The position numbers were made by a program, and so were the translations under genes. Shown here piece by piece: positions 44,224 through 48,231 of a stretch of DNA of 64,000 bases. The stretch is taken from assembly GCA_948470335.1 (NCBI GenBank), contig CAOKOL010000009.1, forward strand, positions 1 to 64,000. The letters are read 5' to 3'. Numbering within the stretch: position 1 is the first letter of the stretch; every line of letters starts with the position of its first letter. This DNA comes from an uncultured Lachnospiraceae bacterium (lineage in GTDB: Bacteria > Bacillota > Clostridia > Lachnospirales > Lachnospiraceae). The notes beneath the pieces were generated by a model. That model was not told the origin of the DNA and did no database searches. It was given only the letters and a program-made list of their open reading frames with translations.

Positions 44224-44406
44224 TTACACCTTTTGTAGTTTTCTTTCTTTCATTTCTTTTAAAAAGGCTCTTCCACCTTCATTATAGAAATTGATTCTTT
44301 CTTGTGTTGTCATATCTTTTGTAAGCTCATAGTGATATTCCCTAATCTTATGAATATCCTCAATCGTAAAATCAGGACTGATAATTGGTTTTGTAATCAT
44401 AATCAT
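44224..44406 (-). CDS. Putative antitoxin of the PIN toxin module
   Basis: 60 residues: ITKPIISPDFTIEDIHKIREY followed by a basic helical tail. Short charged proteins of this kind, found next to PIN proteins, act as antitoxins. The first ATG overlaps the toxin stop (ATGA, 4 bases), and a second ATG six bases on has better spacing to GTGAGG. In this module the toxin gene comes first, which is less usual than the antitoxin-first order. It is AT-rich compared with the neighbours. Confidence 0.7.
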   Translation of the reverse strand: MIMITKPIISPDFTIEDIHKIREYHYELTKDMTTQERINFYNEGGRAFLKEMKERKLQKV

Positions 44407-44879
44407 TCCTCACTTTCCAATAGCACAGAAGGATTCCATATCTCAATCATCTTGTATCCTTCTAAATTTGTAATTGCCCTTACCCCTCTAATTGTCTTTA
44501 CATTTACAATATGCTTAAAATTCCATGAAATAATGCAGTCACATTCATTTATAACTGCCGCCCCTATATGCTGACAATCATCGAAACTTTTTTGTGTCAG
44601 TATTCCCATATCAATAATTTTGTTTGCTACGTTTATTATATCTTCCGTAATATCAAATGTTGTAAACTGTATTTCATTCAAACTGTCAATAATCTGTGTT
44701 TTCTTTGGCTCTGAACAGTTCTCTATTTCTCTTAATGTCACTGTGGATAAATATACCTCATACTTTCCAGCCTTAAACATTTCCCACAACTGCTTTGTAT
44801 CCGCCATCTTTTCAGGCACATCCTCCTGCATCAAATGGCTGATAACCGATGTATCTAAGTATACCTTTAACTTCCGCAT
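44403..44879 (-). CDS. PIN-domain toxin (VapC-like ribonuclease)
   Basis: 158 residues. The acidic residues of the PIN fold are visible: the first D in VYLDTSVIS (about 9), E in TLREIEN (about 52), D in DDCQHIGAA and D in CDCIISWNFKHI. PIN toxins are Mg-dependent RNases that cut tRNA or rRNA. The gene is clearly AT-rich and stands in a small island with its antitoxin, flanked by transposase debris and a truncated ABC gene, which suggests transfer. The promoter is at 44922-44950. Confidence 0.85.
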   Translation of the reverse strand: MRKLKVYLDTSVISHLMQEDVPEKMADTKQLWEMFKAGKYEVYLSTVTLREIENCSEPKKTQIIDSLNEIQFTTFDITEDIINVANKIIDMGILTQKSFDDCQHIGAAVINECDCIISWNFKHIVNVKTIRGVRAITNLEGYKMIEIWNPSVLLESEE

Positions 44880-44951: not shown

Positions 44952-45443
44952 CAGCACCGCAGTCCGGCCTCTCTGCTGTCAAAAAACGAAAAAGAAGATC
45001 TGGCCCTTTCGGCACTGAAAGAAGTGGGGATTTCACATCTTGCGGAAGAAGAATACACCACACTAAGCGGCGGCGAGCTTCAACTGGTTTTGCTGGCAAG
45101 AGCATTATGCCAGAACAGCGATATTCTGATTCTGGATGAGCCTGCCGCACATCTGGATATCCGGCACACCCACCGTATCATGAACCTTCTGTTTCGTTTT
45201 TCCAGTGAAAAAGGGAAAAGCGTCGTTATTTCCACCCATGATTTCAACCATCCGCTTCAATTTGAGGATATGGGGGCAAATGTAAAGATGGCGCTGATGG
45301 ATCACGGAAAGCTCAGCGGCGTAAGCTCTCCGAAATCATTGTTGTCCCCGAACAGCCTGGAACAGATGTATCAGGTCAAAAGCCGTATTGTCAAAGTAAG
45401 TGACAGCCCCGAACGGCATTTTATAGCTACATGGAGTGAATAG
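44952..45443 (+). pseudogene. 5'-truncated FecE/FepC-type ABC ATPase
   Basis: The reading frame holds only the C-terminal part (about 163 residues) of a siderophore/B12/metal-type ABC ATPase: ALKEVGISHL, signature LSGGELQLV, Walker B ILILDEPAAHLD and H-loop STHDF. The Walker A motif and the first 90-100 residues are missing. The frame is open upstream of 44952 but has no homologous sequence or sensible start. The break falls next to the PIN module promoter, so insertion or deletion there removed the 5' end and any permease gene. A start at GTG 45024 could still make a non-functional fragment. Confidence 0.85.
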
Positions 45444-45449
45444 AGCAAA

Positions 45450-46541
45450 ATGAGAAAAAGAATCGTAATCGTTTCCATAATTATGGCGGTATCTATATTC
45501 TGTAACGGCTGTTTTCATGGCAGGACAAAAACGGATCATGAGATAAAAGCCGGCGAACCGCTGGTGGACTGCGCCGGACGGGCTGTGGAAATCCCCCGCA
45601 AAAAGGATCGAATCGCATGTCTTTACGCATATACCGGCCATGTCGCAATCCTACTGCAATGTGAGGAAAAAATCGTTGCGGTTGTGGACGGCTTAAAACG
45701 CGACAATCTTATGCAGATGAAAATTCCCGGGCTGAATGAACTGTCGGCACCCTATAACAGCGGCGCCATCAATATTGAAGAACTGGCCGCAGCAAAACCT
45801 GACCTGATTTTTCTGCGCGCATCCAATCTGCAGGATGAGGGCGAACTGGAAAAACTGGATGGTCTGGCCATCCCCTATGTCGTCGTCGAATATGTGACCA
45901 TGGAAGATCAAAAGCAAAGCATCCGGATTATGGGGCAGGCTCTTGACAGACAGGATGAGGCCGAGGCCTATTTATCTTATTATGAGACGACCATTTCCAT
46001 GGTTCAGGAACGACTGGCAGCACTCCCGGAAGATCAGCGAAAAACCGTATACCATTCCGTGAATGAAGTGGTCCGCACAGATATGCCCGGCACCCTTTCT
46101 TATCAGGTGCTGGAGGCGGCCGGATGCAAAAATGTCGTGACTGCGGATCAGGAACTCAGAATTGACGGAGAAAAGGGGTATGCAAGCGTCGAACAGATCT
46201 ACCTGTGGGACCCCGATCTGATCCTCGTCAATGAACCCGGCGCATGGGAATATTTCCGCACGGATGCAAAATTTTCAGGACTGCGCGCCGTCAGGGAAGG
46301 CGCTGTCTATCAGTTGCCGGTGGGACTTTCCCGCTGGGCACACCCGGGATCGCTGGAATCGCCCCTTGCAGTACTGTATATTGCGTCCACACTGTATCCG
46401 GAATATTTCTCAGATATTGATATGACAGAAGAAATACGTGATTTTTACGATACCTTCTTTCACATTGCTTTAACAGAGGAAGATATCGGCAAAATTTTAA
46501 AGGGCGAGGGAATGAGAACCCCCAGAGAGGAGGAACATTAA
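45450..46541 (+). CDS. Metal/siderophore-type ABC substrate-binding lipoprotein
   Basis: 363 residues. A lipoprotein signal peptide ends in FCNGC (about residues 18-22). The mature part is a two-lobed TroA/BtuF-like (Peripla_BP_2) domain with the segments LVDCAGRAVEIP, NIEELAAAKPDLIFLR and VEQIYLWDPDLILV. It would capture a metal chelate, haem, cobalamin or similar outside the membrane. Its ATPase partner 6 bases upstream is truncated and no permease is present. The next gene overlaps by one base (TAATG). It may still work with another transporter. The ribosome site is weak, as expected for a coupled gene. Confidence 0.88.
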   Translation: MRKRIVIVSIIMAVSIFCNGCFHGRTKTDHEIKAGEPLVDCAGRAVEIPRKKDRIACLYAYTGHVAILLQCEEKIVAVVDGLKRDNLMQMKIPGLNELSAPYNSGAINIEELAAAKPDLIFLRASNLQDEGELEKLDGLAIPYVVVEYVTMEDQKQSIRIMGQALDRQDEAEAYLSYYETTISMVQERLAALPEDQRKTVYHSVNEVVRTDMPGTLSYQVLEAAGCKNVVTADQELRIDGEKGYASVEQIYLWDPDLILVNEPGAWEYFRTDAKFSGLRAVREGAVYQLPVGLSRWAHPGSLESPLAVLYIASTLYPEYFSDIDMTEEIRDFYDTFFHIALTEEDIGKILKGEGMRTPREEEH

Positions 46542-47254
46542 TGTATCGCTATTACCTTTCTTTTGATGACACTGACAATCCGGAAACACCCGGCACCGGC
46601 CATCTGCTGCAGGAATTTCTGGACAGACTGCCCTATGACTGCACATTTATTTCCAGACATCAGTTATTCGTACATCATGACGTACCCTATACGTCCCATA
46701 ACAGCGCAATGTGTGCCTTAATATCGGAAGATGCGGATTTTAACCGGCTGGTCAGCGACGCATCCGAATATTTGAAAGCACATTCCGCGGCAGGATCAGA
46801 TCCGGGGCTTTGCGCTGCGGACTGCCAGAAGCTTTCCCATCCGGAACGCGTAGTCGCATGGGGATACCGGGCAAAAAAAGAACTCCTGCAAAAGAACGAA
46901 GCCTACGCGCTTGCGGAGGAATGCCGCATTCATCTGAGTGAGCACGGCGGCGACGGACAGGGCGTCGTGGGCGCACTGGCGGCGGTGGGACTGCGTATTT
47001 CAGGCAATGACGGACGGGTGAAAGGCAAAAAACAGATACATAAAGACCGCCTGACTGTGGGCGAACTGCTGGAAATAACAGGCTTTGACAGAGTGTGTGC
47101 CTATGGCATCGGCCAACTGCAGGAACATGCGGTTGTCAGAACAGACAATCATTTTGTCAAAGCCATATATCAGAATTACTGCAGCACCATCCTGACCGTT
47201 TTTGATGAGGATTCATACCGGCTGCTGACCAAGGACCAGCTAAAATGTTATTAG
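46541..47254 (+). CDS. TiaS-like 'DDTD' protein linked to a binding lipoprotein
   Basis: 237 residues. It opens with YLSFDDTDNPETPGTGHL, very like the GIDDTD signature of archaeal TiaS (tRNA(Ile2) agmatinylcytidine synthetase), where the aspartates bind metal and ATP. Further parts are GGDGQGVVGALAAVGLR and VCAYGIGQLQEHAVVRTD. The C-terminal OB-fold and zinc ribbon of TiaS are absent. Bacteria normally use TilS for this tRNA, so a tRNA role is doubtful. The gene overlaps the metal-type binding lipoprotein by one base, with GAGAGGAGG in front, so the pair is a translational unit. The function is unknown; a kinase-like or ligase-like reaction on an imported ligand is possible. Confidence 0.75.
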   Translation: MYRYYLSFDDTDNPETPGTGHLLQEFLDRLPYDCTFISRHQLFVHHDVPYTSHNSAMCALISEDADFNRLVSDASEYLKAHSAAGSDPGLCAADCQKLSHPERVVAWGYRAKKELLQKNEAYALAEECRIHLSEHGGDGQGVVGALAAVGLRISGNDGRVKGKKQIHKDRLTVGELLEITGFDRVCAYGIGQLQEHAVVRTDNHFVKAIYQNYCSTILTVFDEDSYRLLTKDQLKCY

Positions 47255-47266
47255 AGGCGGGACGCT

Positions 47267-48163
47267 TTACGGCTTGCACACCCCGCAGGGCTCGTATCCG
47301 TCCTCTGTCAGTTGGTTCCGGGTCCCTTTATAATCTGTTCTGTGTTCTTCCTTGATCCGCTCTACGCTGCCGCAGTCAGGCAGATGGAACCGCATCGTAT
47401 TGGTATTGAGCACATAATCCGTCAGCTTTTGCCGGCCGCCGACTCCTGCCGCAACCGGCTGCGGCTCCCCAAGATTGCTGTTCCCGGTCGCATAGTCGAT
47501 CGCCACGCCGGGCTGTCTGTTATAGACAAAAACATTGAAGGAAACCCCTTCTCCGGCGTCCTCCACGGAATAGGCCTCCATCTGCACGCCGGCGGCCACC
47601 AGATTATCCCCTTCAAAGACGGGTGTCACCCGGTACATAACATGATATTCGGTCTCCTTCACATAATCGGCGACCTGATTTTCAAAAGGAAGCATTCCGT
47701 CTACATTCAGATAGCGGGTGCCGGTGATCAGATTCTTCTCATTGGCATTCTCGCCGGATAGCTGATAGCCGATCAGATGGCAGCGGTTGTAAAGATATTT
47801 TCCGTCCACAATATCATATTTCACCGTCTGCCAGCCGGAAGGCTTTACCTGGCCGATGGCTCCCCGTTCCTCCGTCGGCATCAGGTCAATTCCGATACAG
47901 GCCGAAGCCGGACCACACCGGCCCAGATCGTCCAGGTCGGAGTAATGTTCAAAAGATTCCGTGGTGATTTCATCTTTTGTGAATGTAGGGATATTATCAT
48001 TTACAACCGTATACGGTTCATCGCGGTTTTCATCCGATAAGACATATTCTATCGTTTCCGGCGAATACGCGGCGGGGGAAGTATTATCCGTATTTTTACA
48101 GCCGGATATGGAGAGTAATAAAGCTATGACAAATGGGAAAAGAAAATGTGTTTTAATCTTCAT
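47267..48163 (-). CDS. EndA-like DNA/RNA non-specific endonuclease lipoprotein
   Basis: 298 residues. A lipoprotein signal ends in ISGC. The catalytic domain resembles streptococcal EndA: CGPASACIGIDLMP, GWQTVKYD, and NRCHLIGYQLSGENANEKNL. Here NRCH replaces the DRGH motif of the family, with the His kept as general base and the Asn for metal. The C-terminal 50 residues (FHLPDCGSVERI...CGVCKP) form a separate cysteine-containing module often attached to nucleases. It is surface-exposed and may serve DNA degradation, nutrient use or competence. The start is the ATG at 48163, before the signal peptide; the ribosome site is unclear. Confidence 0.85.
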   Translation of the reverse strand: MKIKTHFLFPFVIALLLSISGCKNTDNTSPAAYSPETIEYVLSDENRDEPYTVVNDNIPTFTKDEITTESFEHYSDLDDLGRCGPASACIGIDLMPTEERGAIGQVKPSGWQTVKYDIVDGKYLYNRCHLIGYQLSGENANEKNLITGTRYLNVDGMLPFENQVADYVKETEYHVMYRVTPVFEGDNLVAAGVQMEAYSVEDAGEGVSFNVFVYNRQPGVAIDYATGNSNLGEPQPVAAGVGGRQKLTDYVLNTNTMRFHLPDCGSVERIKEEHRTDYKGTRNQLTEDGYEPCGVCKP

Positions 48164-48231
48164 GATATCGTTTTGTACTTCATACAATCTTGTTATGAGA
48201 TTGCAGCTCCTTTCGTAACATTTTCACGCCT

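Follow-up and report, generated by a model that had tools for sequence, protein, structure and literature searches.

The window is the whole stretch of DNA analysed here, 64,000 nucleotides of contig CAOKOL010000009.1 from an uncultured Lachnospiraceae bacterium. It holds two adjacent intact genes, coding for a substrate-binding lipoprotein and for a protein with an N-terminal DDTD motif (the “DDTD protein”), preceded by a fragment of an ATPase gene:

44403..44879, - strand: PIN-domain gene (PIN_3, E 1e-7) across the truncation point, outside the system
44961..45443, + strand: ABC ATPase gene of the FecE/MolC type, 3' fragment only (ABC_tran from profile position 77 onward; BLAST)
45450..46541, + strand: intact MolA-like substrate-binding lipoprotein, 363 aa (Peripla_BP_2, Pfam E 4e-21)
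46539..46543, + strand: TAATG, overlap of the lipoprotein stop and DDTD start codons (sequence)
46541..47254, + strand: intact DDTD protein, 237 aa, of the TiaS-kinase-domain (TCKD) family, with the family-invariant residues kept
46565..46576, + strand: DDTD motif, residues 9-12, invariant in 38 family members
46595..46597, + strand: Thr19 of the GTG motif, invariant and aligned to TiaS Thr18 (HMMER alignments)
47267..48187, - strand: convergent DNA/RNA non-specific endonuclease gene (Endonuclea_NS_2, E 5e-24), outside the system

The DDTD protein starts with MYRYYLSFDDTDNPETPGTGHL, which includes FDDTD. The lipoprotein TAA (46539-46541) and the DDTD ATG (46541-46543) have one base in common, and a GGAGG sits just 5' of this ATG. 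An earlier note on this DNA had described the two products as “fused in translation”. The TAATG overlap that it reported is present and coupled translation is possible, but a lipoprotein-DDTD protein fusion is rejected, the link being just a 1-nt overlap between genes, itself unconserved. Among the surveyed loci with a lipoprotein gene directly upstream (28 loci, see below), the spacing varies from -23 to +267 nt, and the one-base overlap is thus no family trait. The convergent nuclease gene ends 13 nt past the DDTD stop codon, at the spot occupied in other genomes by the gene of a four-cysteine partner, “Cys4”. On the other side, homology of the ATPase fragment begins at about residue 107-121 of its 268-280-residue homologues (BLAST), and the fragment is 36-41% identical to residues ~107-270 of the ATPases found beside other DDTD genes. 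The N-terminal ~107-120 residues, including the Walker A half, are absent, and the fragment thus reads as a relic of the operon's importer. No permease gene was found beside the ATPase and lipoprotein genes, so the window lacks a functional MolBCA importer with a full permease and a Walker A ATPase. An Rfam search of the window at gathering score gave zero matches.

The lipoprotein is better preserved. In the PDB, it matches HI_1472 (MolA; E 1e-21), BtuF being unreported at E 0.001, and it is 36-45% identical to lipoproteins beside DDTD genes elsewhere. The earlier note had called it “TroA/BtuF-like”; MolA stands far ahead of BtuF.

A Pfam search with the DDTD protein of the window returned nothing significant. 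Sub-threshold NCBIfam matches over its kinase domain are to TiaS (E 6e-6) and to methanogenesis marker 11 (E 4e-11), and the two models match 37 and 38, respectively, of the 38 aligned family members. The family profile finds TiaS in the PDB at E about 1e-7. An AlphaFold2 model of the DDTD protein (pLDDT 93.7) superimposes on TiaS with a Z of 21.9 and an rmsd of 1.9 Å over 149 residues (VIA-align). TiaS entries top both the Foldseek and the VIA-align lists, other folds having a Z of about 7; a likeness to the fold of HPPK, a pterin kinase, lies at this level (Foldseek E about 0.01-0.09), counts as background and is not used. Together, the model, profile and structure matches show a TiaS-like kinase core and a resemblance that goes beyond chance, and the structure comparison called for in the earlier note thus returned the kinase fold. 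The invariant elements in the 38 members comprise DDTD, the Thr of the GTG motif, RHQ, YTSHNS, DPG, the glycines and alanines of a GxG..GALA type, and LR. In HMMER alignments, the first Thr of the TiaS CTTY motif falls opposite the GTG Thr; it is Thr18, which we take to be the autophosphorylated residue.

With TiaS, the tRNA(Ile2) agmatidine synthetase (NF040849; PDB IDs: 3amt, 4rvz), the DDTD protein has in common the TCKD fold, the DDTD motif, the Thr18 match, and GxGxxGALA. At the RLI and KTRGN positions of TiaS, however, the DDTD family displays its own RHQ and YTSHNS motifs. Full-length TiaS is about 420 residues long, with FLD, OB, and zinc-ribbon domains, whereas residues 5-152 alone of the 237-residue DDTD protein match, with 25 bits against an NF040849 cut-off of 600. 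The later OB and zinc-ribbon domains have no recognised counterpart, and the C-terminal stretch (about residues 155-237) is the DDTD protein's own. The TiaS-type opening and the missing OB and zinc-ribbon end, both pointed out in the earlier note, are supported by these matches. Marker 11 (TIGR03280) is the best sequence family-model match, although it covers profile positions 137-282 only, scoring 42.6 bits where the cut-off is 255.8, and marker 11 has about 136 additional N-terminal positions. We know of no function reported for it, and literature searches on it returned nothing relevant. The best PDB profile match is a 252-residue chain from P. furiosus titled TiaS (PDB ID: 3u02; E 5e-10), with the TCKD fold in common (Z 17.3, 19% identity); unlike the DDTD family, it carries the TiaS-type motif PYKTRGNG. 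In Syntrophomonas-type loci, three DDTD-family genes stand in tandem (L076:9206-9946, L078:6934-7674). In the middle copy, DDTD has become DDSL and both SHNS and DPG are lost, so that its product resembles a non-catalytic subunit.

Scanning 84,980 species genomes with a single pattern yielded 479 tblastn-confirmed stretches, the best 80 of which were fetched, their genes being called by a simple script and then clustered. These 80 loci come from syntrophic and sulfate-reducing Bacillota, from Geobacter and other Desulfuromonadales, from other Deltaproteobacteria, and from one Chloroflexi genome. Their recurring gene order is FecCD permease (-3), ATPase (-2), binding lipoprotein (-1), DDTD (0), and Cys4 (+1). 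Within eight genes of DDTD, a MolA-like lipoprotein is found in 32 loci and a FecCD permease likewise in 32, ECF components (double ATPase, CbiQ-like protein, small membrane protein) in 21, and a TonB-type receptor in 19; literature searches on tungstate and TonB uptake returned nothing relevant. Clostridium polyendosporum and a Pelotomaculum genome (L077, L036) display another ECF arrangement. Genes of molybdenum and tungsten (Mo/W) metabolism are found within the same distance: a molybdenum storage protein in 14/80 loci (cluster c11, a true member of its family with E 6e-74), TupA-like proteins in 13, and Moa/Moe-like proteins in nine, with TupB, MoaC, MoaE, and MoeA identified by reading of the sequences. 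A transporter, a Mo/W gene or a riboswitch accompanies DDTD in 67 of the 80 loci; the 13 loci that have none include several on short contigs. The genomic places of the homologues are thus non-random, as the earlier note had anticipated. Its question whether they always accompany Peripla_BP_2 transporters is answered in the negative: they often do (32/80 loci), but other loci have an ECF-type transporter, and some have none.

In the bacterial operons, the nearest PDB match to the DDTD-linked permease is HI1471 (E 7e-76, against 8e-37 for BtuC). The lipoprotein family is closest to the uncharacterised 4ovk and next to HI_1472 (E 2e-42, against 2e-5 for BtuF; PDB profile search). HI1470-1472 form the molybdate transporter MolBCA of H. 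influenzae, whose MolA component binds tungstate as well (PMC4031551). That system has no described DDTD or Cys4 gene.

The partner Cys4 is a 70-residue protein with the pattern C-x(18-20)-CxNCxxRRWxxxxFxC. It is encoded within eight genes of DDTD in 45/80 loci and follows it at L077:6667-6879, L043:10765-10980, and in 37 other loci. It is also fused to the C-terminus of DDTD in two well-conserved members and a divergent one (fusions are seen, for example, in L022 and L002). In a fused member, the AlphaFold confidence of this domain is low (pLDDT about 56-77). Pfam has no family for Cys4 and gives one weak Fe-S match (E 0.0024); the protein probably binds a metal or an Fe-S cluster.

At the Rfam gathering score, 18 of 23 scanned loci carry the Moco/Tuco riboswitch (RF01055). 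When these RNAs of DDTD loci were used to build a covariance model, 23 more loci were added, bringing the count to 41/80. In 38/80 loci, the RNA heads either DDTD directly (18) or a series of at most six genes on the same strand that leads up to it (20), and in several loci DDTD has a riboswitch of its own and no transporter. No cobalamin riboswitch was found among the loci searched with Rfam, and RF01055 itself has no match in the window or the host genome. The 29 aligned RNAs lack the P3 hairpin and have no room for one. According to Regulski et al. 2008 (PMC2408646), P3-lacking RNAs correlate with organisms using the tungsten cofactor, a rule that is a correlation only; the same RNA type stands before the DDTD operons. 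The paper mentions an S. wolfei operon with genes of unknown function, and the passages considered describe neither the DDTD family nor Cys4 nor their linkage.

Since the 80 loci are the best matches to one sequence, a second sample of 15 stretches was drawn from genomes of the host's family and phylum; it overlaps with the first, L137, L141, and L143 being the same contigs as first-set loci. The order MolB-ATPase-MolA-DDTD recurs in eight of the 15 (two of these being contig-matched duplicates of the first set), an ECF arrangement in two near-identical stretches, and the riboswitch in nine. The divergent members L132 and L145 show no such link. L132 (G167), from the host's family, carries a degenerate motif, VDHADR, and a fused four-cysteine tail, and has no transporter nearby. 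Another genome of this family (G050; L131) preserves the operon intact, its DDTD protein carrying a fused Cys4 domain, and the window resembles a truncated version of that operon. By this comparison, the window locus is degraded and looks like what is left of a bacterial gene set that is widespread and undescribed; the lipoprotein and the putative DDTD enzyme are the sole survivors.

More distant occurrences are also found. Plasmid NZ_CP095398.1 of the haloarchaeon Natribaculum luteum has an unannotated DDTD gene (L146:5950-6708) adjoining a divergent FecCD importer, the binding protein of which is closest to 2etv and is not MolA-like. In an actinobacterial 3.8-kb record, DDTD adjoins a membrane protein weakly like an ECF small subunit. 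From these two loci, the link between DDTD and importers may be old, the link to MolA being established in bacterial operons only.

The gene is sparse in the host's surroundings: it was found in three of 299 sampled genomes of the host's family, host included, and in 27 of 398 sampled genomes of the phylum. In the latter draw, Cys4 occurs in 14/27 DDTD genomes and 1/371 others and is thus nearly exclusive to DDTD genomes. An aldehyde oxidoreductase of the tungsten type (AFOR, PF01314) is present in 27/27 against 201/371 (one-sided Fisher test, 1.5e-7), and RF01055 in 25/27 against 194/371 (1.5e-5), both tests ignoring relatedness. About 200 genomes have an AFOR and no DDTD gene, which is therefore not needed for AFOR. 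The host (G000) has one AFOR, and a search for the Cys4 gene in its genome gave no match. On its contig C7 (L129, G000:C7:10000-29999), genes for a TupA-like protein, a TupB-like permease, and an ATPase are clustered with three MoeA genes and with genes whose products read as MoaA and MobA. A FecCD set comes next, and its MolB-like permease shares 48.7% identity with a DDTD-linked counterpart. The AFOR and this cluster make the host look like a Mo/W user, and the C7 importer might serve the pair in the window. Seven FecCD matches occur across the host genome; a truncated one on contig C23, considered as the missing permease, was rejected as it belongs to another transporter set.

The family, fold, operon, riboswitch, and co-occurrence of DDTD are established from sequence. 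The combination of a MolA/MolB-like importer with a Mo/W riboswitch argues for an enzyme of the Mo/W regulon and not for a corrinoid system. Membership of the family in this regulon is very probable, an enzyme rather than a regulator is likely, and tungsten rather than molybdenum would be a fairly likely metal. Overall, we favour with moderate confidence an enzyme of a Mo/W, most likely tungsten, cofactor regulon that performs a TiaS-type ATP activation after uptake. When the tungsten cofactor is low, the riboswitch would switch on the importer, either a MolBCA-type ABC transporter or an ECF type with a TonB receptor, together with the co-regulated DDTD enzyme. The latter would be cytosolic, would keep the ATP-using kinase core of TiaS, and would be no tRNA enzyme. 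It would spend ATP on activating the imported metal species or a pterin or cofactor intermediate, through a phosphorylated intermediate such as TiaS forms with cytidine, and Cys4 might present or receive the metal or the product. DDTD thus probably helps cells to acquire or use tungsten. An extended scheme, which we consider improbable, would have an organic form of tungsten (a metallophore or tungstopterin) imported and then remodelled by DDTD and Cys4, through TiaS-like phosphorylation of a pyrimidinone carbonyl followed by amine or thiol transfer; this would amount to a pathway for salvaging or modifying the tungsten cofactor, marker 11 being its archaeal counterpart.

Other functions have to be weighed against a Mo/W-regulon enzyme. 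Accessory regulators are common for transporters, and DDTD adjoins two unrelated transporter types; its TCKD fold might therefore bind ATP together with a metal or cofactor, tuning the importer or the cofactor supply. We hold this to be unlikely, considering that catalytic-type residues are invariant across the 38 members, that several loci place DDTD under its own riboswitch with no transporter, and that the Syntrophomonas tandem genes with their degenerate copy resemble pairs of catalytic and non-catalytic subunits. The earlier note leaned towards an imported metallophore or corrinoid, and remodelling of a corrinoid or an iron siderophore could indeed be imagined by analogy with CbiZ beside BtuFCD, since vitamins or chelates are the usual cargo of FecCD, BtuF-type, ECF, and TonB-receptor transporters. 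The proximity of binding protein and permease to the molybdate/tungstate MolA/MolB, and a Mo/W riboswitch that is frequent in the loci searched with Rfam, where no cobalamin riboswitch was found, make this very unlikely and leave the corrinoid link unsupported. A bacterial tRNA-modifying analogue of TiaS is suggested by TiaS being the only clear structural relative, and seems hardly credible: the match is confined to the kinase core, the riboswitch and operon context is that of Mo/W, unlike TiaS, and so few genomes carry the gene that it is ill-suited to an essential tRNA function.

The pair in the window might also be a decaying, functionless relic in the host genome, which we regard as a serious possibility, if somewhat short of an even chance. 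The ATPase is truncated, and permease, riboswitch, and Cys4 gene are absent; yet both frames are full length and keep the family-invariant residues, and the AFOR and the MolB-like permease of the host's Mo/W cluster might serve them.

Little is understood about the way in which cells select, handle, and insert tungsten as opposed to molybdenum. The DDTD family is widespread in bacteria and undescribed; as the earlier note had supposed, no described system of this kind was found in the literature searched. Operons and riboswitches would place in the tungsten pathway a conserved pair, a TiaS-type kinase and a four-cysteine protein, found in Syntrophomonas and Geobacter relatives. The TiaS kinase fold may thereby work outside tRNA modification, and a lead is offered for methanogenesis marker 11.

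Two small neighbours of DDTD deserve mention. An uncharacterised protein of ~75 residues with an acidic tail is often encoded next to the molybdenum storage protein (clusters c12/c21, 16 loci; for example, L072:9391-9627 and L079:3559-3786), two representatives having no Pfam match. Small membrane proteins with an [LM]PGH-type motif lie beside ECF ATPase and CbiQ-like genes and DDTD (L041, L072, L104, and L107 of cluster c9, L077/L036 of c59, and L060); they are possibly an undescribed ECF substrate subunit for tungsten or molybdenum species.
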